Shown here: one piece after another, positions 1,718 to 19,400 of the stretch
Position numbering within the stretch: the first letter of the stretch is position 1
Layout: each line of letters opens with the position of its first letter
IMG/VR virus record: IMGVR_UViG_3300025141_001008
Location: 1-20,256 of that record
Reading direction: 5' to 3' (one strand)
Source of the DNA: a virus
DNA: 20,256 bases
Position numbers and translations under genes: made by a program
The notes under the pieces: generated by a model
Database searches by the model: none
The model's input: the letters and a program-made list of their open reading frames with translations, nothing else
What the model was told of the DNA's origin: nothing

Positions 1718-1720
1718 AAA

Positions 1721-3292
1721 ATGAAGGTAATAGATAAAACACAACAGTATAACGATGCGATTTTGTATGGCGCAATACTTGGCAAGATTATGTTTATAAT
1801 CGCCGACAAGGTATATGCTAGTATTTCGCTTCTCATTGACAAAGATTATGGCGAAAAGCAGGATTTATTAACAGCTTATTTTATGGAAGTTATAGAAAGA
1901 AAATTTACCCAAGAAGCAACACTCAGCGAATACTACGATGATGCAAAAAGATTGTATGGAAAATATCAAGATGTTATAGATCCCAAGAGTAAGAAAAACC
2001 CATCACTTATAACTGGCAAAGAAGCTCTTGGGGCGATGTGCATGAACTCGATTAAAATAATTCTAGAGCAGCTTAAAAAAGTAAGCGTTAATAGCATAGA
2101 AAATACACCATGGCACGAAAAATGGCTTATTGAAAGTGAATTGGGAATAACGACTTGGGTCTCCCTTAATGATATCGAGAAGAAACAAAACGCCGGCCGC
2201 CACAGCAAGGCCTTTAGGAAAAATAACTTGACGCATCAACCATATTTCAATCCTAGCTCGCCTGAAGATTTAACAGATCTTGAAAAATGGATCAATAATA
2301 AGTGGGGTAAATTTGCGCCGCCGCACTCGTTGGTCTTCGGAAAAAAATTCGGAGCAGATATTAGTTATGCTACTAAGAAGAATAAACTTTTGTGGCAAAG
2401 ATTTATAAAAATAACTCCCGCTTCATTTGACAAATCTGCAGGGTCGATATATTCTAAAATAGAAGATATCGAAAAAGAAACATTCGGCCAGTATACTGAG
2501 TCTGGCCCATCTGTATTTAATTTGTGGCCAGCGTTTTATTCATATAATCTCAGAGGGCATGTTAATATAGATTATTGGGAAGAGGCTTGGATAGACTTTA
2601 TACAAAACCTTCCCACTTCCCAAGTTAAAGGATCAAAAGCGGCTCTTAACGCGGCTAGATATGTTTATCGTTTTCCTTATGATATGTATAAAAAGATTGA
2701 ATATGGCGTGAGAGCGGTGTATCTTTGTGATGAAAGCTTTTTTAACAATCACAATAAAGCATTTTTGGCTCAATATGATGATAAAGTTTTGAGCAGCGCC
2801 ACTACATCTGCTTTTCGAAAGACTTATGGCGATTCTGCTTATCTTATAAATAACAAAACGAAATACGGCATCTGGCCTAGATTTCTAATACCAATAGCGG
2901 AAGTCAAGAAAGAATATAACATAGAAGATCTTGCTATTTTCAACAATAAAAACCCCCCGTGGCCAGCTAATCAATCAGAGTACAACGATCATCAAAAAAT
3001 TAGTTGGGAGGCCGAAGCACGCGTTAAAATGGTTAGAAAAAAATTAGATGCTGAGCTTGCAAGCCTTCAAAAAGAACTGCTTGAGACAAACGAAATGAGG
3101 GCGCTTACAGAATATATTTTCCCTTATCATCTATTACCGCAAATGTCAGCTATTTACTGTATAGAGGCATTGTCAAATGCTTTGATGTCTTTATCGGCCG
3201 GCGGGGGAATACCATCAGTACTTGTTAACGCGGGCCTCGATGTGTTGATTAATAAAATAAGATATTCTGGAGTATATATGAAAAATGAATGA
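1721..3292 (+). CDS. Phage structural protein, unknown function, upstream of baseplate wedge genes
   Basis: The 523-aa product is not a family I can name. Residues 12-38 are hydrophobic but broken by Lys and Asp, so they look like a buried helix rather than a membrane span. The middle is rich in Trp, Tyr and Lys (for example PWHEKWLIESELG and NLWPAFYSYNLRG). Residues 435-462 form a charged coiled-coil-like helix. The C-terminus runs EYIFPYHLLPQMSAIYCIEA (464 on) into a Gly-rich turn at 494-496 and a hydrophobic end. The ATG at 1721 is only 3 nt after the previous stop and in the same frame. I see no good Shine-Dalgarno, so it may depend on reinitiation or readthrough. Its 3' end overlaps the gp25-like gene by 8 nt, which points to coupling with the wedge operon. 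A structural role is inferred from position only. Confidence 0.85.
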   Translation: MKVIDKTQQYNDAILYGAILGKIMFIIADKVYASISLLIDKDYGEKQDLLTAYFMEVIERKFTQEATLSEYYDDAKRLYGKYQDVIDPKSKKNPSLITGKEALGAMCMNSIKIILEQLKKVSVNSIENTPWHEKWLIESELGITTWVSLNDIEKKQNAGRHSKAFRKNNLTHQPYFNPSSPEDLTDLEKWINNKWGKFAPPHSLVFGKKFGADISYATKKNKLLWQRFIKITPASFDKSAGSIYSKIEDIEKETFGQYTESGPSVFNLWPAFYSYNLRGHVNIDYWEEAWIDFIQNLPTSQVKGSKAALNAARYVYRFPYDMYKKIEYGVRAVYLCDESFFNNHNKAFLAQYDDKVLSSATTSAFRKTYGDSAYLINNKTKYGIWPRFLIPIAEVKKEYNIEDLAIFNNKNPPWPANQSEYNDHQKISWEAEARVKMVRKKLDAELASLQKELLETNEMRALTEYIFPYHLLPQMSAIYCIEALSNALMSLSAGGGIPSVLVNAGLDVLINKIRYSGVYMKNE

Positions 3293-3662
3293 GGGCTTAT
3301 CAGTAAAACTTCCTTTGCAGAAAGACAAAAAATTTGGCTTTTTGCTAAACACGACTTATGAAGACATGATTCTTCAGAACTTAAAGAATTTAATTTTGAC
3401 TTCACCCGGGGAACGAGTCTGGGATCCGGAGTTTGGTGTTGGTTTAAGAAGACATCTTTTTGAACTACAAAGCGACACAATCAATAATGAACTTGCTGTA
3501 AAGATAAATGAACAGATAGAAACATACATGCCCTTTATAGAAATACTTGATGTTGAAGTACTTAGAAATGCAAAAATTGAAAATATGTTGAATGTGACAC
3601 TTTCTTTTCTTATTAAACCGTTGCAAAAGTCTGAGACTTTGGACATCTCATTTCTTATTTAA
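3285..3662 (+). CDS. Baseplate wedge protein, T4 gp25 / P2 W-like
   Basis: The 125-aa length fits the gp25/GPW family (T4 gp25 is about 132 aa). The family signature is present: an N-terminal strand segment, then ILTSPGERVWDPEFGVGL (residues about 36-54), where a Gly-Glu-Arg turn precedes the (N/D)P-x-FG-x-G-L motif, then a helical segment and a closing beta region. In T4 and P2 this protein sits in the inner baseplate wedge and contacts the first sheath ring; homologues occur in R-type pyocins and type VI secretion systems. The ATG at 3285 overlaps the upstream gene by 8 nt. TGGAG at 3268-3272 is a rather distant Shine-Dalgarno. The ATG at 3278 is in the upstream gene's frame and is not the start. 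A gp6/J-like gene follows directly, as expected for this module. Confidence 0.92.
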   Translation: MNEGLSVKLPLQKDKKFGFLLNTTYEDMILQNLKNLILTSPGERVWDPEFGVGLRRHLFELQSDTINNELAVKINEQIETYMPFIEILDVEVLRNAKIENMLNVTLSFLIKPLQKSETLDISFLI

Positions 3663-3677
3663 AAACTATTTAATGTC

Positions 3678-5471
3678 ATGGCCAGTAAAAAAATAATCCC
3701 AATAAACTATACTAATCGCGAGTTTGAGACAATCAAGGGCGATTTAATCGAATACGCAAAGCGTTATTATCCAAATACGTATAAAGATTTTAATGAGGCG
3801 TCTTTCGGCGCTTTGATGCTTGATACAGTCGCATATGTTGGCGATATGCTTTCTTTCTATTTGGATTATCAAGCAAATGAATCTTTTTTGTCAACTGCGA
3901 TAGATCCAGATAATGTGATCAAGCTGAGTAAAACTTTGGGATTTAAATATAAGGGTGTCCCAAGTTCAAGTGGAATTGCAACTTTTTATATTTTGATACC
4001 AGCTAAATCAACGGGGCTTGGAACAGATTCAAATTATTTGCCGATATTAAAGAAGGGGGCACAAATTGCCAACGAAGCAGGCGCTAGTTATATTCTTAAT
4101 GAAAACATTAATTTTGCAGATCCAGATAATTTGGTTGTCGTCGCACAAAATGATGCAACGACCGGCTTGCCCACTTCATATGCAGTTAAAGCGTCTGGCC
4201 AAGTAATTTCTGGTATTTTAGAGCAAGAATCATTTGTACTTGGCGATTACAAAAAATTTAAAAGTTTGCAATTAGCAGCCTCCAACGTGGTAGAGGTGTT
4301 ATCCGTCACTGATACCGCTGGACATGAATATTATGAAGTGGACGCGTTATCACAAAATGTTATTTATAAAACATTTGAAAATAAAAATAATGATAAATTT
4401 GATACGCCATATGTTCTTAAGGCTGTTCCTGTGCCGCGAAGATTTATTGTTGAGCGCCACCGTGATGATATCTTTTTACAATTTGGGTATGGCTCTGAAG
4501 ATAATTTAACCTCAGAGGTTGTAGTGGATCCTGCGAATGTTATATTAAACACATATGGCAAAGATTATATTACAGACACTACATTTGATCCAACCAATTT
4601 AATTAAAACAGACAAATTGGGCGTAGTGCCAACCAATACAACTTTAACAGTTACTTATCGCACAAATACTACTGAAAATGTAAACGCCCCGGTTGGTTCT
4701 GTGACTATTGTAGAAGGATCAAACTTTAGTTGGCCAGATGCCGCCACCAACCCTGCTACAATTCAGGCGGCCATTTCAAGCTTGGAATGTACAAACGAAG
4801 AGCCTATTTTGGGAGATTTAGCGCTGCCAACAGTTGATGAATTAAAAATTAAAGCTATTGATACGTTTATGACACAAAATCGTGCAGTAACAAAGCAAGA
4901 CTATATGAATCTGTGTTATTCTATGCCGACAAAATTAGGTTCTTTAAAAAGAGTAAACATTGTTCAAGACAAAGATTCATTTAAAAGAAATCTTAATTTA
5001 TATGTAATGGCTGAAAATTCACTTGGATTTTTTATTACGGCAAACAATACACTCAAAGACAATTTAAAAACTTGGCTTTTGAATTACAAGATGTTGAATG
5101 ACACTATTGATATTCTTGATGCTAAGATTGTTAATGTTGGAATAGATATTGAAATAATCACGCTTTTGGGAAAAAATAAATACGATGTTCTAGAAGACGC
5201 GCTCTCTGCCCTAAAAGATAGGTTTGATAAAAAATTTGAAATTGGCGAAAGCATATATTTAAGCGACGTTTATACAACTGTTAACAGAATTGATGGCGTA
5301 TTAGACACCACCTCTGTAAGAATTACAGCGAAAACGGGCGCAAATTATTCACAGGCTCCATTTGATATAGTTCAAAATACATCTGCAGATGGCAGATATG
5401 TATCTGTGCCTGAAGATTATGTATTAGAGATAAAATTCCCAGAAGATGATATTAGAGGGGCTGTGAAATAA
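3678..5471 (+). CDS. Baseplate wedge protein, T4 gp6 / P2 J-like
   Basis: The 597-aa product is close in size to T4 gp6 (about 660 aa). The N-terminus reads NYTNREFETIKGDLIEYAKR, followed by FGALMLDTVAYVGDMLSFYL and a stretch on multiple substrate-free helices, the typical gp6-type opening. The C-terminal half has Baseplate_J features: RAVTKQDY at 402-409, the LNDTIDILDAKIVNVGIDIE strand pair, and IGESIYLSDVY at 522-532. gp6 homologues dimerise and link neighbouring wedges into the ring around the central hub, which fits the gp25-like neighbour 15 nt upstream. The middle (about 180-390) is beta-rich and less conserved. The ATG at 3678 lacks an obvious Shine-Dalgarno; an ATG at 3673 is in another frame. 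The stop overlaps the next start as TAATG. Confidence 0.92.
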   Translation: MASKKIIPINYTNREFETIKGDLIEYAKRYYPNTYKDFNEASFGALMLDTVAYVGDMLSFYLDYQANESFLSTAIDPDNVIKLSKTLGFKYKGVPSSSGIATFYILIPAKSTGLGTDSNYLPILKKGAQIANEAGASYILNENINFADPDNLVVVAQNDATTGLPTSYAVKASGQVISGILEQESFVLGDYKKFKSLQLAASNVVEVLSVTDTAGHEYYEVDALSQNVIYKTFENKNNDKFDTPYVLKAVPVPRRFIVERHRDDIFLQFGYGSEDNLTSEVVVDPANVILNTYGKDYITDTTFDPTNLIKTDKLGVVPTNTTLTVTYRTNTTENVNAPVGSVTIVEGSNFSWPDAATNPATIQAAISSLECTNEEPILGDLALPTVDELKIKAIDTFMTQNRAVTKQDYMNLCYSMPTKLGSLKRVNIVQDKDSFKRNLNLYVMAENSLGFFITANNTLKDNLKTWLLNYKMLNDTIDILDAKIVNVGIDIEIITLLGKNKYDVLEDALSALKDRFDKKFEIGESIYLSDVYTTVNRIDGVLDTTSVRITAKTGANYSQAPFDIVQNTSADGRYVSVPEDYVLEIKFPEDDIRGAVK

Positions 5472-6991
5472 TGGGTATTAAACGTTACATAGCTACAAAA
5501 GATAATACAATAACAAACGCATTTAAGTCAGATCTTTCTACAAGAGGGTCTGGTTCCAACATGGGTGCCTCTGATATTTTGGAGGTTTTTTCTATTTATG
5601 CTCAAGCCACCACAAGCAGCATAGAAAAATCACGCATACTGCTTCAGTTTCCGACAACTGATCTTATAGCCGATAAACAAACTGATGTAATTTTGTCCGC
5701 TTCCTACCAAACTAACTCGGGTAAGTCGCAAGCTAATCCAAAGTATTTTTTAAGATTATTTAATGCAGAACATGCCCAAACTTTGCCAAAACAATTTGAG
5801 GTGACAGTAAAAGCTGTGTCTAGGTCTTGGGATGAAGGCATTGGCTTAGACATGGATGAATATAAAGATCTGGGATCTTCAAACTGGGTCAACGCCGCCA
5901 GCGCATCTGGGGGCGTGACAACGTGGACTTCTGCGGGCGCCGACTTTCATGCTAGCCCTTCGCACACCTACTCTTTTGTTAAAGGAACTGAGGATCTTGA
6001 ACTTGATATTACAACATTGGTTAATCAATGGCTGGATGGTACCAAGGCTAATTATGGCCTTGGCGTTTTCCTATCTACGGCATATGAGGACTCAACTGAG
6101 CGTTCGTATTATACAAAAAAGTTTTTTGGCAGAGGAAGTGAATTTTTCTTTAAACGACCTTGTATTGAAGCTCGCTGGAAAGACGCAAAGCTAGATGATC
6201 GCGGCGCCTTTTATGCAAGTAGTTCGTTGGCCCCGAAGGTTGACAATTTAAATACTTTATATTTTTATAATTATATTCGCGGCCAACTGAAGAATATTGA
6301 ACAAGTTGGAAAAGGAAATATATATGTTCACTTATATTCCGGCTCGGACACTAATAATAGACCTGTCGCCGGCGGGACACCACTTCGTTTAGATCTTCCA
6401 GATGATCATGGTTCTGGCGAAACTGGCAGGATTCTTGATACGCCTGCAACTGGCGGTTGGTTTACAACAGGAATATATACCGCATCTCTTGGTTTGAGAA
6501 CTTCTCTCGTGAAGGCTTTTGATGTGTGGCACGTTGGGGCAACTCACTACAAGAGTGGAACAATTGAGATTAAAACATTTAATACCAACTGGGAAGTCAA
6601 TCCCACCGATCGCTATATAACTTCGATAACAAATTTGAAAGATTCGTATAATACTAAAGAAACGGCCAAGTTAAGATTATATATTCGCTCGCAAGATTGG
6701 AATCCCAATATTTATACAAAGGCAATAACTAGGGTTCAAGCAGAGCTTTTAGAACAAACCTATTATAGCGTTTATAGAGAGTCCGATGATTATACAATAA
6801 TTTCATATGGCACTTCAAGCGCCACAGAACACACAAGATTATCTTATGATATATCTGGAAATTATTTTGATTTGGACATGTCTTTATTTGAACCGGGTTA
6901 CGCTTATGGAATTAAATTTTTAATGAAAGTCAACGGCAACTGGAAAGAAACTCCAGAAACATTCAGGTTTAGAGTAGATAATGAGTCTTAA
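5471..6991 (+). CDS. Virion protein with DNRLRE/CBM96-like beta domain
   Basis: The 506-aa product opens with a Ser/Gly-rich segment containing GSGSNMGASDILEVF. It then has a DNRLRE-type (CBM96-like) beta-sandwich at about residues 50-236: SRILLQF at 54-60, SRSWDEG at 117-123, the 'D-I-T-T-L-V-N-Q-W' strand at 179-187, and a closing RPCIEARW at 229-236. In other proteins this fold is found on cell-surface and carbohydrate-associated proteins. Residues 240-506 are beta-rich, with Ig-like spacing and a conserved-looking end near SYDISGNYFDLDMSLFEPGY. AGAGGGG at 5454-5460 is a good Shine-Dalgarno for the ATG at 5471. The gene overlaps the giant gene by 11 nt. A role as a baseplate-periphery or attachment protein is inferred from the domain and position. 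No catalytic residues were recognised. Confidence 0.85.
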   Translation: MGIKRYIATKDNTITNAFKSDLSTRGSGSNMGASDILEVFSIYAQATTSSIEKSRILLQFPTTDLIADKQTDVILSASYQTNSGKSQANPKYFLRLFNAEHAQTLPKQFEVTVKAVSRSWDEGIGLDMDEYKDLGSSNWVNAASASGGVTTWTSAGADFHASPSHTYSFVKGTEDLELDITTLVNQWLDGTKANYGLGVFLSTAYEDSTERSYYTKKFFGRGSEFFFKRPCIEARWKDAKLDDRGAFYASSSLAPKVDNLNTLYFYNYIRGQLKNIEQVGKGNIYVHLYSGSDTNNRPVAGGTPLRLDLPDDHGSGETGRILDTPATGGWFTTGIYTASLGLRTSLVKAFDVWHVGATHYKSGTIEIKTFNTNWEVNPTDRYITSITNLKDSYNTKETAKLRLYIRSQDWNPNIYTKAITRVQAELLEQTYYSVYRESDDYTIISYGTSSATEHTRLSYDISGNYFDLDMSLFEPGYAYGIKFLMKVNGNWKETPETFRFRVDNES

Positions 6992-9900
6992 GAAACTATT
7001 TGATGCAGAAAAAAGTAAAAAAACCACCAACTTAACTTCGGTGGTTCACCAAAGCTTATCTGCGCTTAATTCAAGTTCTTTGGATGTTGAATCCGGAGAG
7101 CTAGTTAGACAATCTAATAAAGAAACTCGCAGGTTTGTTCCAGAGGTGGATTATTCTGATCCGGCGAACTTTGTTCGTTTTGGTTTAAGCGCTCAATATT
7201 ATAATGAATCAATAACAAGAATTAAAGATTATTATCCATATGATGGCTCATTAGCAGAAAAACAAAAATGGCGTAACGAGTCAACGTATTTGGATCTTTA
7301 TCTTTTTGATAATGAGTATCCTAGGGCAAACGGATATGTTTCCTTTGGAGATACTTGGACCGGCACTAGTACGATAACTGGGGGCTGGGGCAAGCCAACT
7401 ACACTTGAATATATCCAGTTCAAAAGCGGCCCCCACAAAGATCCCAACGAAAGAGATACAATAGCAAAAACGTTTCCAGACCCCGGCAATGTTGTTGGCG
7501 GCAAGGCAAGTATATATGATGAAAACATAGACGATCTTGGCAAAAGTAGAGAAGGAAACTTACAATTTAAGTGGCATGACGGCGCCTGTGTTGAGTTCTG
7601 GATGAAAAAAAGCGCATGGCTAAATACCTCAACAGATACCATAAATGAGTGTATATTTCAATTGTCTGGAACGGATGACACTAAAAGCGTTGGCCACGAG
7701 TTGGCTATATTTTTAAGCGGTTCGGGCAATAGCACAAAGATATTTACTCACTACGGAACATATAGTGGTAAAACGTTTACTAAATCTGCGCTTAGTGCGT
7801 CATTAGATACTGGTTTGACTTCAATTGCCGATAACAGTTGGCACCATTACGCTATTAATATTAAGCCAGTATCAACTACTACAACTCTTGAGTTATATGT
7901 CGATGGTGTCCGTACTAGCGCGCTAGCATCGCTAACCACACCAAGTGTTACGAATGTTGTTAGCGGCGCTCTGGTGGGCACCATCGGCGCCTGTGGCGCG
8001 CAGATTGATACAAGCTTTAGAACGTTGGGTTACGGCAAGTTGAAAGCTAGTCTAGACGAGTTCAGATTCTGGAGAAAAGCCAGAACAGCAAGAGAGATCG
8101 GCCGATTTTGGAATAGCCAAGTTGGCGGTGGAACAAATACCGATATAGCAAATGTTGATTTGGGCGTTTATTATAAGTTCAATGAAGGCGTAGTGGGCTC
8201 CTCTTCTATAGATAAAAAAGTAATAGATTATTCAGGCAGAATATCTAATGGTACGTGGACCGGATATGCATCAGGCGCAAGATCTACCGATTCAGCGATT
8301 GTTGAATCTGGCGCATCGAGTTTTGAGTTCAAAGATCCTATTTTGTATAGCGCACATCCGGACTTTATAACATTTGAAAACAGATTAGCCGAAAGCGCCA
8401 GCTATCATGACAGGAACAACCCATCTGCCATTTATAATACTTTGCCGGCGTGGATAACAGAAGAAGATTACGAAAACGGCAGTGTTTTACGCAACTTGAC
8501 ACAAATAATGGCAAGTTATTTGGACGATCTTTATCTTCAGATACAAGAGCTTCCAAAGCTTAGACATAAAACTTATGCAGAAGATTTTAGGAAACCTCAT
8601 GTTTTTTATGCACAGCTATTAGAAAATACTGGTTTTCCTGCACCAAAGATTTTTGCGAACATATCAAGCTTTACAAAATATTTAAACCGATCAGAAAAGA
8701 AACTATTTGAAAAAGACGTAGATGAAATAAAAAATACGATTTATCAAAACATATATAATAACTTAGTTTATATTTTAAAAAGCAAGGGCACCGAAGCCGC
8801 TTTTAGAAACTTGATTAGGTGTTTTGGCGTCGGCGATGAACATTTTAAGCTTAATATTTATTCAAACAATACGGAATATAACCTTAAAGACGGCTATAGG
8901 CCAGCAGTAGTAAGAAAAAATTATATTAATTTTAATGATCCCGATGAATTTGAGGCGAGCGTTTATCAATATTCAGATCCGATTAATTCTGATTCAACAG
9001 GCTTTATTTATGGAACGCTAGATCAAAAAGTTGCTAACGATCAGTCTGCTGAAGGCTCAACTGCAAATACTTATGAGTGCGAAGTTATATTTCCTAAGCG
9101 CCCAGCCCCGGGCAGCTTCAACTTTGTAGATTATCCGTATTTAACATCCTCGTTGTTTGGCGTGCATCAACATAACACGGCCAGCAATGATGACGATACT
9201 GGCTTTCCAACACCAGATTATGCAAACTTTCAAGTGCATGCTGTACGCAATAAAATATATTCAAAGGATGTATATTTTGTTTTAACTTCTTCTGGTGATT
9301 TTAGTTTTAAAGAAATTGCTTCGCCTGTTTTTAGAGACGTTTATAATAATCAGAAGTGGAATTTTGCAGTTCGTATTAAGCCGAGAAAATTTGATCTTGC
9401 AGATTTTACGAGTGGAAGTTTTGAAGTTGGAGTAACCGGCTCAAATATTGAATTCTATGGCATAAGTACGGTGGGAAGTTATGTTAATGGTGAGTTTTTG
9501 CTTTCAGCATCTATACCAACTTACCTTCAGGGCGTTTCTTTGGTTGCACATCCACGCAGAGTTTACGTCGGCACGCATCGTCAACACATGACAGCTTCGA
9601 CAGTATATCAAAGAACAGATACAAAAATTTCATCGATGAGAGTTTGGGCAGATTATTTGGACGACAACACTATTAAAGCTCATGCTCTTGACCCGGAAAA
9701 TTATGGCACTGCACAGCCCTATAAGAGTGCTTATTTAGGCCAATCACAGATAAGTGATGTTTTTGTGCCAAAATCTGAAACTTTGATATTGAACTGGGAT
9801 TTTGCTCAGGTCAGTGGCTCAGATGCTAATGGCAGGTTCCCCGTTATTGACGCGTCTTCTGGTTCTGTGACCGATCTAAATACTCGTGTTCGCTACGGAA

Positions 9901-12900
9901 AAATGGGAGATGTAATCAAAAAGTTCCATACTGGCCGTGGGGACTTTTTTAAAGAAAGCGAAACCCGTGTATTCGAAAAAGAATATGTTCAATCTGCTAA
10001 AAAGCAATTGCCAGAAAACTTATACACAGAAGATACAGTTCAAATTTTACGAGAAGACGATTTACAATTTACAAAAGAGTCTAAGCCCATTTCCACATTT
10101 ATAAATGTAGAAAGAAGCATGTATCAAAATATTTCACAAGAGATGGTGAATATCATGTCTTCGATTGTTGATTATGCTAATCTTGTCGGAGAGCCGGCTG
10201 ATAAGTATAGGCAGGAATATAAAAACTTAGGAAAGCTAAGAGGCCTCTTCTTTGAGAGGATCGGTAATACGCCAGATCTAGATAAATATTTGGAATACTT
10301 TCAGTGGTTAGATCTTTCCCTTAATAGAATTATTGAACAATTATTCCCAGCATCTGCAAATGTTTCAGAGGGCGTAAGAAATATGGTCGAAAGCCATATT
10401 TTTGAAAGAAGCAAATATCGACATCAGTTTCCGACGCTTGAACTCAAGGGCAACGATCCTTCCGGTTCTTTAGAAAGCATCAATAGGCATCTTTATAATT
10501 GGAAATATGGTCATGCTCCGCTGGTAGAAGACGGCGAAAGAGAATTTTTAGAACAGCCAGAAAAACAAGCAGAAAATTGTTTGTGGTGGGATAAGCGTTC
10601 TTTGGAGGACGGCCTTCCACATTCTGGTGATGCTGATATTGATGTAAATAATAGACAAGTAATTTTTAAAGCCGAAATCGACGCATTGCGGCGATCGTGG
10701 ACTACTCCGTATAGATACACAGTAGATTTTCAAGATGAAGTCCGCACCGGTATTCAAACCAAAAATAGTAAATACAACTTACACAAGGCAACAAGGGGTG
10801 TCATTAGGGTGGACACCGCCCCGGCTCCGGAAGACGGGAGTGAATCTCAGATTGGAACTAATTGCGATGATGACGCCGCACTTAAACTTAAATATGACGG
10901 TCAAGAAAAGATTAAAGTAGTTATAGATGGCAATATATACAAACCAGCCGGCTTGCCAGTACGCTATTATTCAACTTCAGATACGTCAGAAGGCATATTT
11001 ACAACTCACCAACATTTAGATGTATACGAACCCGATTATGAAGTTCCAATACAAGGTCCGTTCACAGAAAAATATGTCGGCGGTAGTGCGCATAGAAAAG
11101 TGCCTCCGACAACAGCAAAAGCTGGTCCTGCCGGCAACACCACAAGGCCGGAAGCTTGGTTATTCGATGGACCAGAGGAAAAAATTGACAATCCTTTCAA
11201 CGTTAATGTGGATCACGCAAGAGCCGATTTTTATGGTGGTGGCGAGTTCGGTAGTAGCGAATTGGCCAAACGTCCGGTTAACATACGAAACGTTTTGTAT
11301 ACCACCAGTACAGTTGGGCTGCCAACTGTAATAGGCAATTATCAGAAAAATTATGAAGCGGTTCAGACTAGCGACCGCATGACGAATAATTTATATTTCC
11401 GATCCAGTAATGGCGTAGAGCCCAACTCGGTTCCATCACCATATGTTGCGGATACGTATGATTTTGAAGTTCCCGATAGAGGAAGAAACGAGACAGTTAT
11501 CGTTGAAAGGTTCAGCGCACCCGGCGGCATTGATACTATGAACGAAGGATATTTGGATGTTGTTTCTGCGCAGTATTCAGTTTATAATGCTTTGCCATAT
11601 AGAAACTTGATTGTAAGAGAGCCCCTTAGAGAGCTTTTGTCAAAACCAATGGCTTTTGGCGGTTATCAGTCTGGATCGTCGGTTACAGCTTCGTTCCACA
11701 AGGTGAACCACAACCCATTAACAGTTCTTAAGTTCCGCGGGTCGGATGCGAGCGCAGGGTATGTAACGGATAGTCTTGAAGACAACTGGTTCGTTCAGCA
11801 TATGATCCCCCAGAGCGATATTCAGTATTCTTGGATTGCAAAATCATATGATTCTACGGCAGTATATGGTTATGCGACGGGCAGTAAGGATATTGTGTTT
11901 GAACCAAACGCTTATCGTGACGTTTCGGACCTCTGGGTCGCGCTGCTCTACGACAACCCCCGCCCAGTGGGGAATTATCCTTTTAACCATGCTAACTTAA
12001 CACATTGGTCAACCAACCCGAATGACCCGGCTTTGCACTGGGGTCCTCCCGGCCCTGTCGCCATCGCCGTGTCGGCATATATGAACTATCAAATTGTTGA
12101 AAATGAAAATTTGCTCGACATGGAGAAATACGCGCAAGCCTTACAGCGCGGCCACGACGAACTCACCGACGCCAACGCGGTGATCTACAACCTGCTCTGG
12201 CCGATGTGGAAAAATCTTCTTCGCATCAACGGCCCGTATGGTTATCCTTCTTGGAAACAGACAAGAGCGGCTCAGCACCCAGTTGCTAGATACCACAGAC
12301 GCAATAATACAATATCGATTGTAGAGCCGATTACAATTGATGGTACAGCCGCTGGAACTGGTTTTCCGAAGTATAAGGGAGGCGGATTTTCACATTATAT
12401 TGAGCCAGCGGTTGTTTCAAAGTATAGTCCTTTGGTCCATAAATTAACTGTAAAAACTGATCCAGTCACTACAATCGGCCCTCCTAACTCTGAAATTATT
12501 ATTCAGCACACTTATGCCAACAATAAATCAGATTTCAGTCATGACGAATTGAATAAAAAATTGGGAATAGATTTTGATTCTAGACTTCAAGTGTACGATC
12601 ATATTTTAGACTTGTATGATACGGACGTAATTAAAAAAGTCAATCACTTGAAATATAAAGAAACGCTGTGGCCAAGAGAAAAGAATTCATTTTTAGCTAG
12701 AAGTAGAAAAAGATTAGATTATGCCGAACTGCAAACTGAAATTGATGCTGTAGAGCACAGATCGTTCTGGAGAGACAATATTGTAGATCGAGAAAGGCGT
12801 ACACTTGGCACAGCACTTAATTCGCAAAATAGAGTGGTCGCGGGCACAGAGAATAAAACCGGCTTGTCTATTTGGCCTCTTGATACTTTTGGCGAGTTAA

Positions 12901-15524
12901 GACTTCACCATTCTGGCACGGCAAGCGACCCCCATATGGCGTGGCTTACGGCTTCAGCGTGTTATACGCGCATTTCGTCATCACATCAAGCGCATTGGCA
13001 GGAGGGAAGGTCTGGCCCGGGCTTGGCAAACCCAACATACGGCCACAACGCGATTAGTTTTTATTGGACAAACCAACTTCTTCCAACGGCCGACGAAAGA
13101 TATTGGACTGATAATGTCACAACCGGCCGAGCGCCTCGCAACCCTTGGTTTGATTCATATGAAGATTTTTCAGAAGACATTAAAAGATTTGGCAAAGACC
13201 ACTCTATTATTCCAGAGTTTAGGATAAGTGAGCATATGGATTATTTTGTTAATCAAAAAGGCGGAAACTTCTCCGCCCCTCTGCCCGGATTTTTAAGCAT
13301 TGATGGTGCGAGCAGTGATGAGGCCCCAAGAACAAATGGTATTTTGGATGTTGAAGATGCGTTTGGAAATAGTTTAGCCGCATCAGGACGACCAGATGAA
13401 AACAGCTCCTCTGATAATTTTTACAAGTATTATGCAGAGGGCGAGTTTAATAAATATTTCAAGATTTTACGACAAGACCACAAGGACAAAAAGACAAAAA
13501 TAAAATTAGAATGCCGCGGCATTATGAAATTGTTGCCATATAATGGTTTTTATCCTGTGTTAAGAAGCGTGCAAATGGCAACACTGTTTTCTTCTTCGTA
13601 TGGTAGTGCTGTGTCTGGTGGTGAAAATATGTTAACGGGACCAGATAATACTTTAGTCCAAAGAAAACAGGCCGCATACGCTGGTTTCTTAACTCCCTTT
13701 TATACCCCGGGAATTTTTTATAACACGGTTAAATCTGGCATTGCGGTTGATTACTCAGTACACACTACAATCGCCAACGTTGGCTATGAAAGCCCAGTAA
13801 AGGGCTATACAGTGCAAACCGGCCCAGAATTTAGAGTGCCGTTTGAAGCAGTCATAAGCCCTAGAAAATATTTTTTATCTGGTACAAATATATATCTTCC
13901 AACTCCGGAAGCGCGATTTAATCTTACTTGTAGTTTCAGCGGCCGGACTAGTAATGTTTTATATGATTTGGCTGCAAATAATTATTTTGCTGAAGTTTCG
14001 AATTTCTTTTTGCAGAATAAAAGAAACGTCGTGTTAGCTTCAAGGCCAGAACCTTTTACTATGTATTCGGGCGTTGAATATAAGATGGACGTTGTGCTGC
14101 GTAAAAAACAAGAGAAGACGCAACGCTTTACTGAAGACAACTTCGAGCGCTTTATTATGTTTGAGGGCCCGTCTTATCCGGAAGATGGATTCGGTTGGAA
14201 TTATCTCGGCGCGCCATTTGGGCCGCCCTATAAATATAGAGCTAATAACCAATGGGCTGATGAAGATCCCGGGTTTGCAGTTCATGCTCCACCATATTTT
14301 TATGGTGATTCAATAGCAACAATTAGTTTCACGCCATCGCGAAATGATAAGTTTTCTTTAAACGAAATACTTGCGGGAGCTACAATTACATATTCTAATC
14401 TAGGTAATTTTACAACAGGCTTCATGAAGGCGATCGAGCCCGGGACTGCTGTCGATGATCATCGAATGCATATTAGTTCGTCTGTAAATCTGACTGGAAA
14501 GACAAAGGTTAAACAAGTCACGTATTCAGCGGTTGATGTGTTTGAGACCGATCGCGGCCAGAAGTTTAAGCCAGTAAGCATTTCAGACGATCCAGACGCC
14601 CCTAATGCATGGGTTATTTCACCAAAGTTTGAATGCCCAGTGATGAACTTTTCGGAAACAGTGTTAGAGGAAGAAACAGGCGGAATGTGGACTCACTATG
14701 GTAAAATTCCAACTCAAAAGGAAGGGGTTACTTTACAAATACGTGAACAAGATCCGGTATTAGGTAGTCGCGACCCAAGAGCAACAAAAGTCGGATCATT
14801 GGCAAAGGTGTGTGGGTTTGATACAAAGGAGAAGTATGTTGGCCAGTTAGCCAGCCAGAAGGAGATTTCAGAAGCAATCGTAGTCATACCTCTGAGGCCG
14901 GCCGTAACCGTTGGCACAACATCCTTTCGGGAAAGGCCATATTATTTTGATAAACGAACTTTGGCGGTTGCTCTTGAAGAAAAGCAAATGTTTATGGTAT
15001 TCGAAGATATTCATTTAAACCCGAAAGATTCGATTAAACAGATGGTGACAAAGATGCAGAAATATGTATTCCCGCCTCATTTAGATTTCTTGACTAACAG
15101 AGAAATGACGCCGTTTGGAATGTACATTTTTGAGTTCGAAGACACGCTGTCCAAACAGGATTTGGCTAATATTTGGCAGGGTGTTATGCCGGATCGTGCC
15201 GTCACCGCTAAACGAGAAACTGTCGCCGTCGAGCATGAGATCGGGCCCGGCGAAATATTCCAAGAAGACTTTCAAGAAGATACACGTTGGATAATTTTCA
15301 AAGTTAAAAGAAAAGCAAGAACAAATTATTTTGCAACAACTGCAGATCAGTCTGATGACGACAGATTTAAGTTTGATTTTAAGATCGGCGCGCAAGGCTC
15401 AACAGCGGAGCAAAATGAACTGCCGTATAGTTATAATTGGCCATATGATTATTTTTCTTTGGTCGAGTTGGCCAAGATTGACGCAGAAGTGACTTTTGAA
15501 GAGAAAGAGGAAGTTAAAGAATGA
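6981..15524 (+). CDS. Giant baseplate/tail protein with LamG and tail-protein-I-like domains
   Basis: This 2847-aa protein is one uninterrupted frame. The N-terminus is Lys/Ser-rich. A LamG (ConA-like) jelly roll spans about residues 200-377: a VEFWMKK strand, NSWHHYAINI around W287, LELYVDGV, and LDEFRFWRKARTAREI. Residues about 490-620 are helical and end in KSKGTEAAFRNLIRCFGVG (600-618), resembling the K-G-T motif of phage tail protein I (P2 I). A second lectin-like region covers about 700-900 (W793; SSMRVWADYL from 884). Later conserved-looking blocks are KRPVNIRN (1430), ERFSAPGG (1509), INGPYGYPSWKQTR (1749-1762), FYTPGIFYNTVKSGIAVDY (about 2240-2258) and MYIFEF...IWQGVMP (2714-2736). 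I recall similar blocks in giant structural proteins of environmental phages, unchecked. Inferred role: wedge-attached adhesin scaffold replacing I/gp7. The start overlaps upstream by 11 nt; the stop overlaps the next start as ATGA. It contains a GC-rich patch. Confidence 0.9.
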   Translation: MSLKKLFDAEKSKKTTNLTSVVHQSLSALNSSSLDVESGELVRQSNKETRRFVPEVDYSDPANFVRFGLSAQYYNESITRIKDYYPYDGSLAEKQKWRNESTYLDLYLFDNEYPRANGYVSFGDTWTGTSTITGGWGKPTTLEYIQFKSGPHKDPNERDTIAKTFPDPGNVVGGKASIYDENIDDLGKSREGNLQFKWHDGACVEFWMKKSAWLNTSTDTINECIFQLSGTDDTKSVGHELAIFLSGSGNSTKIFTHYGTYSGKTFTKSALSASLDTGLTSIADNSWHHYAINIKPVSTTTTLELYVDGVRTSALASLTTPSVTNVVSGALVGTIGACGAQIDTSFRTLGYGKLKASLDEFRFWRKARTAREIGRFWNSQVGGGTNTDIANVDLGVYYKFNEGVVGSSSIDKKVIDYSGRISNGTWTGYASGARSTDSAIVESGASSFEFKDPILYSAHPDFITFENRLAESASYHDRNNPSAIYNTLPAWITEEDYENGSVLRNLTQIMASYLDDLYLQIQELPKLRHKTYAEDFRKPHVFYAQLLENTGFPAPKIFANISSFTKYLNRSEKKLFEKDVDEIKNTIYQNIYNNLVYILKSKGTEAAFRNLIRCFGVGDEHFKLNIYSNNTEYNLKDGYRPAVVRKNYINFNDPDEFEASVYQYSDPINSDSTGFIYGTLDQKVANDQSAEGSTANTYECEVIFPKRPAPGSFNFVDYPYLTSSLFGVHQHNTASNDDDTGFPTPDYANFQVHAVRNKIYSKDVYFVLTSSGDFSFKEIASPVFRDVYNNQKWNFAVRIKPRKFDLADFTSGSFEVGVTGSNIEFYGISTVGSYVNGEFLLSASIPTYLQGVSLVAHPRRVYVGTHRQHMTASTVYQRTDTKISSMRVWADYLDDNTIKAHALDPENYGTAQPYKSAYLGQSQISDVFVPKSETLILNWDFAQVSGSDANGRFPVIDASSGSVTDLNTRVRYGKMGDVIKKFHTGRGDFFKESETRVFEKEYVQSAKKQLPENLYTEDTVQILREDDLQFTKESKPISTFINVERSMYQNISQEMVNIMSSIVDYANLVGEPADKYRQEYKNLGKLRGLFFERIGNTPDLDKYLEYFQWLDLSLNRIIEQLFPASANVSEGVRNMVESHIFERSKYRHQFPTLELKGNDPSGSLESINRHLYNWKYGHAPLVEDGEREFLEQPEKQAENCLWWDKRSLEDGLPHSGDADIDVNNRQVIFKAEIDALRRSWTTPYRYTVDFQDEVRTGIQTKNSKYNLHKATRGVIRVDTAPAPEDGSESQIGTNCDDDAALKLKYDGQEKIKVVIDGNIYKPAGLPVRYYSTSDTSEGIFTTHQHLDVYEPDYEVPIQGPFTEKYVGGSAHRKVPPTTAKAGPAGNTTRPEAWLFDGPEEKIDNPFNVNVDHARADFYGGGEFGSSELAKRPVNIRNVLYTTSTVGLPTVIGNYQKNYEAVQTSDRMTNNLYFRSSNGVEPNSVPSPYVADTYDFEVPDRGRNETVIVERFSAPGGIDTMNEGYLDVVSAQYSVYNALPYRNLIVREPLRELLSKPMAFGGYQSGSSVTASFHKVNHNPLTVLKFRGSDASAGYVTDSLEDNWFVQHMIPQSDIQYSWIAKSYDSTAVYGYATGSKDIVFEPNAYRDVSDLWVALLYDNPRPVGNYPFNHANLTHWSTNPNDPALHWGPPGPVAIAVSAYMNYQIVENENLLDMEKYAQALQRGHDELTDANAVIYNLLWPMWKNLLRINGPYGYPSWKQTRAAQHPVARYHRRNNTISIVEPITIDGTAAGTGFPKYKGGGFSHYIEPAVVSKYSPLVHKLTVKTDPVTTIGPPNSEIIIQHTYANNKSDFSHDELNKKLGIDFDSRLQVYDHILDLYDTDVIKKVNHLKYKETLWPREKNSFLARSRKRLDYAELQTEIDAVEHRSFWRDNIVDRERRTLGTALNSQNRVVAGTENKTGLSIWPLDTFGELRLHHSGTASDPHMAWLTASACYTRISSSHQAHWQEGRSGPGLANPTYGHNAISFYWTNQLLPTADERYWTDNVTTGRAPRNPWFDSYEDFSEDIKRFGKDHSIIPEFRISEHMDYFVNQKGGNFSAPLPGFLSIDGASSDEAPRTNGILDVEDAFGNSLAASGRPDENSSSDNFYKYYAEGEFNKYFKILRQDHKDKKTKIKLECRGIMKLLPYNGFYPVLRSVQMATLFSSSYGSAVSGGENMLTGPDNTLVQRKQAAYAGFLTPFYTPGIFYNTVKSGIAVDYSVHTTIANVGYESPVKGYTVQTGPEFRVPFEAVISPRKYFLSGTNIYLPTPEARFNLTCSFSGRTSNVLYDLAANNYFAEVSNFFLQNKRNVVLASRPEPFTMYSGVEYKMDVVLRKKQEKTQRFTEDNFERFIMFEGPSYPEDGFGWNYLGAPFGPPYKYRANNQWADEDPGFAVHAPPYFYGDSIATISFTPSRNDKFSLNEILAGATITYSNLGNFTTGFMKAIEPGTAVDDHRMHISSSVNLTGKTKVKQVTYSAVDVFETDRGQKFKPVSISDDPDAPNAWVISPKFECPVMNFSETVLEEETGGMWTHYGKIPTQKEGVTLQIREQDPVLGSRDPRATKVGSLAKVCGFDTKEKYVGQLASQKEISEAIVVIPLRPAVTVGTTSFRERPYYFDKRTLAVALEEKQMFMVFEDIHLNPKDSIKQMVTKMQKYVFPPHLDFLTNREMTPFGMYIFEFEDTLSKQDLANIWQGVMPDRAVTAKRETVAVEHEIGPGEIFQEDFQEDTRWIIFKVKRKARTNYFATTADQSDDDRFKFDFKIGAQGSTAEQNELPYSYNWPYDYFSLVELAKIDAEVTFEEKEEVKE
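11927..12240 (+). other. GC-rich patch with shifted codon use inside the giant gene
   Basis: Within an AT-leaning gene this segment switches to C/G-ending codons such as CTG, CTC, GCC, GAC and ATC, most clearly at 11927-11971, 12023-12081 and 12113-12210. By hand count 12121-12240 is 68/120 GC (57%), against 33/120 (28%) for 12541-12660 in the same gene. The frame is intact and the encoded segment runs into the INGPYGYPSWKQTR block. Recombination with a GC-richer relative is one explanation. Confidence 0.6.
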
Positions 15525-16480
15525 AGTTCTTCAATAGAAAAGAAGAGGTAATGGACTTTCAACTTACTCAAGAGGGTAAGCGCCAGTTGGCTGGGGGCAC
15601 CTTAAAGCCAACATATTATGAATTTTATGACGACGATATCACGTATGATGTAGACGGCTCTAGTCCTTGGGAAGCACAAAATAGTTCCGAGGATAGAATT
15701 AAAACAACGCCGCGCTTTAAAACTCAATATCTTTTTCACGGGGTTAATACAGAATTTCAAAAACACTTAAACCAAGATAAAGACAACTTTATGGCTAGAG
15801 ATGAAAATTGGAATCCCTTAAAGTCCCCATTGGGAATGGCCGACTTTTCATCTAATTACGCCCCAGCTTGGGAAATAAATTTTTTAGCTGGCAGAAATTA
15901 TAATATTGCAACAGCTTATACATCTTCGGCTGATATGTATGAAAAAATACCACAAATCAACTGTGAGCTAGAATATTTTATAAAAACAGGCGATAAAAAA
16001 GCGCTTGAAGAAGAATTTGGCATACTGCCCACTGGGGAAAACTTTGAAAGTGACGATTTACATATTTTTGATGATGGTACTTTTTTTACCGTACAGCCAG
16101 AGAATAATTTTATTTTAGAAATTTTAGAAGAAAATACAATTTTTGATAAAGAAAATTTTGATATAGAAGTTTTTCTGGTCGAGCATACCGGCAGCACAAA
16201 CAAACAAGAAATGCTTATACCTCTTAATTTTTCTTTGCAGGAAAATATGGAATTATTTCCTCAACAAGAAGACGAAGATCTTAATTCTGAAAAGGTTGAA
16301 TATTTTATTGATGTTAAGGGTGAGAGCGAAATGGACCCTGAGCTTATAGAAGAATTAGAATCGCTGGCCAAGTTTAAGTCTAGATTTGATACTTTTGAAA
16401 AAGCCGATTATACAAAAGTTGGTGTGGATGATAATTATACTGATCAACCACCACCAAAAGATATTAAGGAGCCTTGCTAA
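15521..16480 (+). CDS. Acidic phage structural protein, unknown function
   Basis: The 319-aa product opens MKFFNRKEEVMDFQLTQEGK, then has a DDDITYD acidic turn, a RIKTTPRFKTQY stretch and FHGVNTEF. I recall similar openings in a family next to giant LamG proteins in environmental phages, but cannot name a function. The C-terminal half (151-319) is strongly acidic, about 45 Asp/Glu to 14 Lys/Arg by hand count, and ends in Pro-rich PPPKDIKEPC. There is no signal peptide or membrane span. The start overlaps the giant gene's stop (ATGA), with AGAGGAAG at 15506-15513 as a good Shine-Dalgarno, so translation is probably coupled. An internal ATG at 15551 would place a GAGG too close and would drop the conserved opening. 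An accessory role to the giant protein, for example in assembly or as a small baseplate component, is inferred from adjacency. Confidence 0.85.
   Translation: MKFFNRKEEVMDFQLTQEGKRQLAGGTLKPTYYEFYDDDITYDVDGSSPWEAQNSSEDRIKTTPRFKTQYLFHGVNTEFQKHLNQDKDNFMARDENWNPLKSPLGMADFSSNYAPAWEINFLAGRNYNIATAYTSSADMYEKIPQINCELEYFIKTGDKKALEEEFGILPTGENFESDDLHIFDDGTFFTVQPENNFILEILEENTIFDKENFDIEVFLVEHTGSTNKQEMLIPLNFSLQENMELFPQQEDEDLNSEKVEYFIDVKGESEMDPELIEELESLAKFKSRFDTFEKADYTKVGVDDNYTDQPPPKDIKEPC
16466..16471 (+). promoter_or_regulatory. Shine-Dalgarno deciding the 16483 start
   Basis: AAGGAG lies 11 nt before the ATG at 16483. It is only 2 nt before an in-frame TTG at 16474, which is too close to use. This supports the ATG and a product of 1243 residues. 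The motif lies within the last codons of the upstream gene. Confidence 0.75.
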
Positions 16481-16482
16481 AT

Positions 16483-19400
16483 ATGGCTGAAAATCTCACA
16501 ACCGAACTTGGCCACATTATTCCCGATGTGTATTTTGACAAAGTAAACCTTCACAGCGAGGGTGAAACACTAATTGTCAAAATAAACGCACACTTAAAAG
16601 ACTTTGTTGAAGAGGATGTTGTCTCATCTTGGTTCGCTGATGAAGATTTTGCAAAGTATTTTAAAGTGGACATGTACTATAGTACTGATCGTGAAGTAAC
16701 ACAACATATTATTGAATATAGTCTCCACTCATCTCGCGCCGGCGAGATTGATATGGATTGGAAATCTTCGATAACCAAGAAGGCAGAAAAAGAAAAAACT
16801 TTTGTAAAAAACGGCACAGCGAACTTTGTAAAAAGTGATTATATTTCTGTTAGTGATAGCGGAAATGAGATAATTGATATACCACTTGTTCCTCAAAAAA
16901 TTAAACTAGACCAAGTCCCCGGCCATTTAACAGTATTTTTTGGACCACGCCTTAATCTTGCTTCCCTTGCCACGAACATGGACCTCCCGGCGCCTAAATG
17001 GCCGCAGAAGTCCTTTATTTACAGCCACAAAATATTTGCGTTTACAATATTTGATAATGGACAGACTGTTTCTACTCAGAAGCAGTTTGTTACAAAAGAT
17101 GATGTAGATAAGTCTGGCGACTTGGCGACCGCTTGGAGCGGGCCTGTGCATTCAATTCCGGGCTATGAATTTGCAGATCCTGCAGGCGGCTATAAGTATG
17201 TTCCCCTCGCTTTTATGAAGGGTGCGAAACACCCCGGCTACGATGTGCCTCACGACTTTTTAGAACTCATCGATGTTGAAAACAATATTGTACAGGATTT
17301 CAGAAGCGTAACCAGACTTGAGCAGACGCAACTAGATTTAACACAGCTTGAAAATCAATTGATGCCGGCTTTGCAGATTGTTGAAAAGTATGCCAAAACC
17401 ACAGAAGGCAACAAGATGGTGGATAAAAAGCCAAGATACTTTTCAGAACTACTTGTATCAAGAAATGATGAAAATCAAGCAAGTTTTGTATTTATGTTTG
17501 ATCAAAGACAATATTTAAAAAACAATTCAACATATAAAGCCCTCTTCGCGCTTTCGCAATTTTCTGATGGGGTGGCAGTAGAAGATATTCTTTTAGAAAA
17601 TTCGCGCATATCTTCAATGCAAATTTATAGAACTAGAGTAGACGAGAAGGCACCCGATGATGATAACGGGCCGACTCTTCTTGTGGCTACCGGTCAATCG
17701 CCGGCGAAGATTGGTGTAGATTTTGTCGCATCACCACCAGATGTCGGCGGTTATATGTTTACAGAACTTACTGATAATATGAATTTGTCAAAGGGTATAC
17801 GCGTTTTCACAATCCTTGATCATGAGATGAAAAAACTTAATGCTGGAAAATATTCATATAGAGTGGCCTTAGAGGTTACAGATCCAACAATTCCGCATAT
17901 TAAAAATGAGTTGAAAAAATTATATGCTGCTCAAGCTACGTTTGAAAAATATTATCAAAAGTCATTAGGATATGCCACCGCTCAAGCGTTTGAAACGGCG
18001 CCGCAAGCTGAAACTACTTTTGAAACAAAAACTGGCATGCCATTAAAAAAATCATTTCCATTTTATGATTATATTACTGAAAAGTTCAGACCAGAGTTTC
18101 GAAACTCTGTAACTAATGCTGATTGGCTGACGCCGATTGATACGCTAAAACAAGTTCTTTTTGCCATTTATGGTTCAAATTTTAATTTGGGCACTGTTGG
18201 TAATCCGTATGGTGGATCGGGCCTGACCGGCTGGGGCAAGATGGTCTCTCCAACAACAGGAAGTCCAGATGGAATTAAGGCTATTATGGAGACAATGGAT
18301 AAGTTTGTTGTGGCTTTGGAAAAGCTGGTTAGCGTTACCAAGGCAGCAAGCCCCGCTGATAAAACTTCGTCTAATAAAACAAAAGCAACTAAAGCTCTTC
18401 GTGCGGAATATACTTTTTCAGAATCATTTGATGCTAGCGAATCGAGCGCCGTGGGATATCATTATATGTCTTTGCCAGAACTAAATGCCTCGCGCATGTT
18501 CGGCCTGAAGGAATATAATCCTAGTTGGGTTGATACAAGGGTTAATTTAGAAGTAGATAAGTATTTTGGCCTTGGACAAGCTGCGAAAGAAGAGGTTTGG
18601 GATTGGGGCGATAGATTGCAAAATAGCGATTATAAAGGCATTGTGGATGGAGTAAATATTCAAAAATATTCTTATGTAAGCCCTTCAAAAATTGATACTT
18701 TGGCATTGGGGTCAACAGAGCAACTTGAAAAGGGTGGAATTTATAATAAGGCAAAACATCAAAAACTTCTTTTGGACATTATACAATATAAGAAAACGGG
18801 AACGCCAGCCACGTTTGATTTTAAAGCACATCCCGGGGAAGCCTCCAAAGAAAAAAACAAAGATTGGCACGCGATGAGGTCAGGCTTAATTGATCTTATG
18901 TCTGAAGAAAATTGTGTAATGATAAGTAAAGAAGGGTTTTCTGAAGGCGCCTTTAGTTTTAAGTCGTTTAAATCAATCTTTAAATCATTTGGGCTTCCAA
19001 ACTTTTTTGGGAAAAAAGATAACAAAACGCCCCCTCTTGACTCAACGAAAAAAGAAGAGAGTATACCGTATACAGTTCCATCAGATCAGGAAGATTATAA
19101 CCCCAACTCTTTATTTCTTCACCTTGTGGTTAAAAGCATTTTAGAAAAAGAAGGCATGTCTATTAGCTCAATCAAAAATTTGTATTACGCCGCCGCCAAA
19201 ACAAACGAAGATTTTTTTGCATACGATTATCAGGCCGCTTATTTTAAATATTTTGGAGAAATGCTTAAAAAATATGGATCTAAAATGAAAGCCATGAAGA
19301 TGGCAAAAAAGAAAGTGTTCACAGATTTACCGAATCAACTTAAAGCTTTAATTGTAAATTCAGAAACTATATATCCAAAATACGCACAAAACGTGGATCC

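Follow-up and report, generated by a model that had tools for sequence, protein, structure and literature searches.

Uncultured phages of large size are plentiful, and little has been learnt about the means by which they hold on to their hosts. In the stretch of viral DNA analysed here (20,256 bases, an IMG/VR record; hereafter the window), one 8.5-kb gene takes up about 42% of the sequence, and we questioned whether its 2,847-residue product (P0001) belongs to the tail baseplate and what its long unassigned part may be. We favour, at a probability of roughly 0.55, the reading that P0001 serves a contractile-tailed phage as a baseplate wedge protein, holds the position of gpI and has grown into a multi-lectin arm. 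This would tie the largest structural gene of one uncultured clade to the baseplate wedge region.

The giant gene, its operon and its uncultured family

The P0001 frame (6981–15524) begins with ATG, overlaps the end of P0002 (6991) on its 5' side and the start of P0003 (15521) on its 3' side, and lies in this run of genes:

3285–3662, + strand: P0008, gp25-like baseplate gene (Pfam GPW_gp25, 4.5e-12; phrog_261, 4.7e-21)
3678–5471, + strand: P0005, gp6-like baseplate wedge gene (phrog_10646, 3.3e-17; tblastn matches to immuto and Mel-JY01)
5471–6991, + strand: P0002, homologue of immuto_159 and of a 386-aa Mel-JY01 protein (hhalign)
6981–15524, + strand: P0001, giant baseplate-region protein (2,847 aa plus stop; conserved in its family)
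15521–16480, + strand: P0003, conserved neighbour (present in 59 of 82 loci)
16474–20214, + strand: P0004, conserved neighbour (present in 35 of 82 loci)

The window genes run head-to-tail as P0006, P0007, P0008, P0005, P0002, P0001, P0003 and P0004, the frame of P0006 being open at the record end. An earlier sequence-only reading had placed P0001 after gp25-like and gp6/J-like genes; both precede it, as for a gpI-type wedge, but P0002 (5471–6991) intervenes. P0002 matched the equivalent immuto and Mel-JY01 genes at hhalign P 8e-23 and 1e-22. The Pfam family Disaggr_repeat was detected in 8 of 37 P0002 members (best E 0.0034) and CBM96 in the Mel-JY01 copy (5.5e-5, under the cut-off), which is weak evidence that P0002 may be CBM96/disaggregatase-like. 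For nine neighbouring or syntenic proteins, PHROGs returned no match at 0.01.

Searches of environmental phage genomes recovered a large uncultured family. A first scan of IMG/VR gave seven loci with P0001 relatives, and a scan with the alignment of these seven gave at least 599 stretches, at least 540 of them encoding some relative, from which 80 loci were taken. Because the scan patterns fall in the LamG1 region of P0001 (described below), stretches not kept may include LamG-only matches; on genome contigs, 39 of 44 loci matched just around the LamG region. The locus set contains near-duplicate rows (L031/L051, L066/L067 and L003/L005). Among the genes identified, order (gp25, gp6, P0002, P0001, P0003, P0004) and strand were constant in all 82 loci examined (L003–L084), with P0001 detected in 82, P0002 in 80, gp6 in 79, gp25 in 76, P0003 in 59 and P0004 in 35, and gaps between operon genes were mostly below 100 bases. 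One-frame members of at least 2,500 aa range from 2,517 to 4,986 aa, some being truncated by contig ends. Records with relatives include contigs of 167.6, 155.7 and 193.2 kb, and a terminase was present in seven of the eight such records searched.

The P0001 frame is a genuine, conserved gene on which purifying selection acts. Whole-gene dN/dS was 0.11–0.16 in three pairwise comparisons of the window, L003 and L004 (84–88% identity) and was low in every part except a hypervariable patch, with the slowest-evolving part at aa 433–640 (0.012–0.033). Four blocks that had looked conserved from the window sequence, namely ERFSAPGG (aa 1509–1516), INGPYGYPSWKQTR (aa 1749–1762), FYTPGIFYNTVKSGIAVDY (aa 2240–2258) and IWQGVMP (aa 2731–2737), all sit within family-conserved stretches. 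As a separate observation, dS between the window and L004 was 0.35 at aa 1–200, 0.83 at aa 916–1200 and 0.29 at aa 2041–2847, and this module-wise variation suggests mosaic recombination inside the P0001 gene.

The N module and its counterparts in cultured phages

P0001 was divided into the following parts:

6981–10670, + strand: N module, aa 1–1230 (collinear with immuto_161 and a 1,336-aa Mel-JY01 protein)
7611–8099, + strand: LamG1 domain, aa 211–373 (Pfam Laminin_G_3, 6.1e-9, above the curated cut-off)
8277–8900, + strand: helical core with K-S-K-G-T motif, aa 433–640 (slowest-evolving; matches immuto, Mel-JY01 and LR756508 proteins)
8907–10001, + strand: second ConA/LamG-like domain (ConA2), about aa 643–1007 (model A, fold searches, family HMM)
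10125–10424, + strand: second conserved helical stretch, aa 1049–1148 (common to the LR756508 protein)
10671–12812, + strand: M module, about aa 1231–1944 (gene splits at both ends; many insertion sites)
11901–12260, + strand: hypervariable patch, aa 1641–1760 (low identity; insertion hot spot)
12813–15521, + strand: C module, about aa 1945–2847 (model with pTM 0.80; profile of aa 2040–2847 without a match in four phage records)

Annotation of the whole protein was sparse. Pfam recognised a single domain, Laminin_G_3 (aa 211–373, 6e-9), and PHROGs gave weak matches only, all to families of unknown function; neither matched P0001 to a named tail-fibre or tape-measure family. With tblastn, P0001 had no match at E 1e-3 among 50,697 phage records, nor did most of the relative from L007 at 1e-2 in phage records, and no paper describing P0001 was recognised in searches of open-licence PMC. 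Searches of PDB sequences with N-module, core and C-terminal profiles returned no trustworthy match; rows for IcmE (E 4e-5) owed their score to the adding up of very weak matches to repeats, and Rab and WD-repeat rows were noise.

The end of the N module was set by a GC change point at aa 1230 and by gene splits at about aa 1253–1320, and its relatives were found where the operon itself recurs in cultured phages. The gp6-like protein of the window is 29–32% identical, over 98–99% of its length, to those of immuto, Mel-JY01 and the 484-kb phage LR756508. In immuto (a Flavobacterium phage) and Mel-JY01 (a Microcystis phage), gp25 and gp6 are followed by a gene for 369 or 386 aa, a further gene, and a 'hypothetical protein' of 1,265 aa (immuto_161, QQO92079.1) or 1,336 aa (WWT39511.1) at the place equivalent to P0001; both phages, like the window, have a homologue of P0002 between gp6 and the large protein. 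The N module is collinear with these proteins, at hhalign P 3.3e-17 over 937 columns for the Mel-JY01 family and 9.5e-15 over most of its length for the immuto family (controls: 0.002–0.027 for five block-shuffles and 0.53 for the reversed profile against Mel-JY01; 0.018 for the reversed profile against immuto). The family HMM matches the immuto, Mel-JY01 and 1,399-aa LR756508 proteins in the helical core (domain E 1e-11 to 1e-15) and finds a second matching stretch in the LR756508 protein. Together with the gene order in 82 of 82 loci, this collinearity over some 1,230 N-terminal residues upholds the baseplate-region assignment, and it makes the conserved part testable now in immuto and Mel-JY01.

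P0001 fits the LamG/ConA-like lectin superfamily at two places, by profile for LamG1 and by fold for ConA2. The latter was detected by structure only, in model A (aa 436–1635; 52 sequences), which is weak overall (pLDDT 63) except for its ConA-like domain; fold searches with this model found ConA-type domains and nothing else, with VIA-align Z up to 16.1 for PAPP-A, about 12–14 for pentraxins and 12.6 for CBA120 tailspike 2. A family HMM of aa 640–915 matches all 61 aligned members. Recognisable folds had been confined to the first 900 or so residues, a limit correct to within about 100, as ConA2 ends at about residue 1007.

Between the two domains, the most conserved stretch of the family contains K-S-K-G-T-E-x-x-F-R-N-L, a core motif which we take to resemble that of P2 gpI. 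Pfam Tail_P2_I was matched in 3 of 53 members (best E 0.019), the window protein itself giving no match at E 1. With a gpI profile of 31 sequences as target, hhalign gave P 0.002–0.06; gpI scores exceeded every one of 40 shuffles for three query profiles (core, core-plus-intermediates and Mel-JY01), and 1 of 40 shuffles scored better for the fourth, immuto. The helical core appears to resemble P2 gpI in sequence, and membership of the gpI family is suggestive.

The C-terminal 1,600 residues are separable and insertion-prone

In relatives, three places in the gene are sites of splitting: about aa 1253–1320, 1584–1623 and 1944–1960. The N-module tree has 87 rows, 15 of which are unscored; 59 carry the fused gene and 13 the split one, so the split state occupies 13 of 72 scored loci; it requires eight state changes on the tree, at least six of them forced by well-supported branches. 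A Shine-Dalgarno-like sequence precedes the downstream start in 8 of the 11 split junctions read. Recurrent splitting implies that P0001 consists of units that can be separated.

Past aa 1180, inserts (the longest about 440 aa) are found at many positions, and those of the N module lie almost exclusively within LamG1. The family HMM found extra LamG domains clearly in just two inserts (L019 and L056), so it is not general that inserts are lectins; the 4,986-aa member L052 has a single Pfam match, below the cut-off. Within the hypervariable patch, aa 1651–1760 are 28–44% identical between members that are 84–88% identical overall (window, L003 and L004). Cassette exchange of the patch was considered and set aside: among 21 pattern-matching stretches, the sole relative was a near-identical contig (L002). 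Inserts and patch fall almost wholly outside the N module.

Base composition also changes along the gene. In the window GC rises from 38.8% to 43.0% at aa 1230, a step explained in part by the amino acids encoded. Of 59 members, 56 have a higher GC past the N module and 39 a higher GC3; change points in other members are scattered.

The sequence-only reading had asked for structure prediction in overlapping segments; model A yielded ConA-type domains only, and model B (aa 1648–2847; 56 sequences) gave no clear PDB match. Model B nevertheless reaches pLDDT 73 and pTM 0.80 and its confident fold starts at about aa 1766, although some loops within it have low confidence; the hypervariable patch lies largely in its low-confidence start. 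Foldseek against the PDB gave a best E of 0.44, none being below 0.001, and VIA-align a best Z of 5.4, inside the tool's stated noise range. The VIA-align rows were generic beta-sandwiches, mostly with 110–160 aligned residues, and nearly all alignments extend from about residue 240 of the model to residue 1195, the pattern that packing of early against last strands would produce. In BFVD, seven unnamed viral predictions match at E 4e-30 to 1.5e-76 and TM 0.39–0.70 by query (A0A516M7I0, an entry of 1,197 residues, A0A1B1IWQ4, A0A516LBS1, A0A1B1IUQ9, A0A0F7LAZ6, A0A1B1IV21 and A0A516MAV8), none with a named function.

Both immuto_161 and WWT39511.1 lack the C-terminal ~1,600 residues. A profile of aa 2040–2847 matched two of nine records, both controls (L007 and L013). 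Immuto, Mel-JY01, LR756508 and BRock gave no match anywhere in their records, nor did L072 (10.7 kb) or the records of two more relatives, of 137 and 157 kb. For this large additional part, whose predicted shape is unusual, the cultured-phage records searched gave no counterpart. In the L013 record (G002, 57310–59859), two TAG codons lie inside the C-module match, and the listed open frame is 2,859 aa; perhaps the match extends beyond the gene end.

The lack of a PDB match does not prove a new fold, and the C module may both mark the clade and have a fold for which no relative has been solved. Tentatively, and with rather more doubt than confidence, we read from model B a new fold over the C-terminal ~1,080 residues, a discontinuous beta-sandwich whose early and last strands would meet across ~900 residues, and which would be clade-specific, host-facing and absent from cultured phages. 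The third split site follows predicted strands of the C-terminal sandwich (model residues 237–250, window about aa 1884–1897). As the predicted sandwich has strands from both sides, the products of a split at aa ~1944–1960 should stay together, and two polypeptides would then complete the sandwich.

A proposed wedge role and its alternatives

Receptor-binding proteins usually have lectin-type domains and a C-terminal half that is hypervariable and prone to insertion, and the likeness of the core to gpI is just suggestive; P0001 might therefore be mainly a receptor-binding fibre or adhesin hung on the baseplate, with the true gpI-position wedge encoded by another gene such as P0002 or P0003. 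We consider this unlikely, though deserving attention, given that the most conserved part is a helical core common to syntenic cultured-phage proteins, that Pfam and PHROGs gave no match to a fibre family, and that P0002 is CBM-like (on weak evidence) rather than gpI-like. A tape measure, which is a long, mostly helical protein, was rejected as an identity because models A and B are mixed or beta-rich.

The sequence-only reading had seen in P0001 several proteins in one, a scaffold doing the work of separate wedge and fibre proteins. Its modules are indeed separable, the gene being split in two at three recurrent places among relatives (13 of 72), but replacement of T4-type wedge and fibre proteins (gp7, gp8, gp10, fibres) is not supported and appears improbable. 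For T4 gp7, hhalign gave P 0.1 and no module tested showed detectable homology; its three Pfam domains (helical, 5th and 6th) were all found in T4 gp7 itself and none in the window protein. T4 gp6, gp8, gp9, gp10, gp11, gp53 and P2 H either fell short of inclusion with the family HMM or did not appear among its matches, and HMM and hhalign comparisons gave homology to T4 fibres no support either. Some relatives do carry separate genes, which would fit an assembly or sequencing error that had fused neighbours into one long frame; with a continuous long frame in 59 of 72 scored tree rows and low dN/dS in all parts but the hypervariable patch, such an artefact is scarcely credible.

Under the preferred wedge reading, the place of the P0001 gene would be that of P2 gpI, after gp25 and gp6/J; wedge proteins of the gpI type join two gp6/J copies in a heterotrimer. 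The anatomy of P0001 would comprise a conserved anchor, lectin-type domains and a variable outer part, and we infer a position in the virion, contact with gp6 and sugar binding: the helical core would bind the gp6/gp25 ring, each particle would present to the cell surface a ring of lectin-type domains (on six wedges, by analogy), the M and C modules would form an outer, host-facing apron, and inserts and hypervariable patch of the apron may tune surface binding. A clade-specific outer module (M plus C) that can be fused or separate is, with the wedge role, the most economical reading.

Parallels exist among described phages. In Vp4, the third wedge protein Gp119, which bears CBMs, decorates host cells, whereas its CBM-less homologue Gp177 does not (PMC11406892). 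As described there, Gp119 and related Herelleviridae wedge proteins resemble P0001 in following a gp6-like gene and carrying carbohydrate-binding-type domains; Gp119 is smaller (831 aa) and has CBMs rather than ConA/LamG domains, the likeness being one of description (PMC11406892). Listeria phage A511 gp105, which is related to Gp119, and its 1,309-aa neighbour showed no homology to P0001. For extracellular contractile systems, Tail_P2_I proteins have been put forward as fibre adaptors (PMC12923769). In Streptomyces phage BRock, gp126 (791 aa) is the second gene after a gp6-like gene; it aligns to the P0001 core with weak similarity (P 0.017) at a stretch that resembles Tail_P2_I and scores just short of the cut-off (0.0014); it carries CBM_5_12, unlike the ConA/LamG domains of P0001, and its genome lacks the C module.

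The N module also surfaced in assembled cellular genomes. Short MAG contigs carrying it (L085; L086, Maricaulis; L088, Poseidoniales; L089, Flavobacteriales) are probably mis-binned viral contigs, giving no safe host. A 1,559-aa copy (L087, CP070664.1, 9947–14623) inside a 2.85-Mb WOR-3 MAG 'chromosome' is nested among phage copies in the tree, indicating a mis-joined contig or a degenerate prophage. Upstream of gp25, the window (2–3292) holds P0006, with its open end, and P0007 (523 aa), and L006, L007 and L008 have one open frame of about 1,890–2,090 aa at that place, with no link to P0006 or P0007 by phmmer at 1e-5. At the other end of the operon, P0004 closes with a low-complexity tail, Gly-rich and Lys/Pro-rich.
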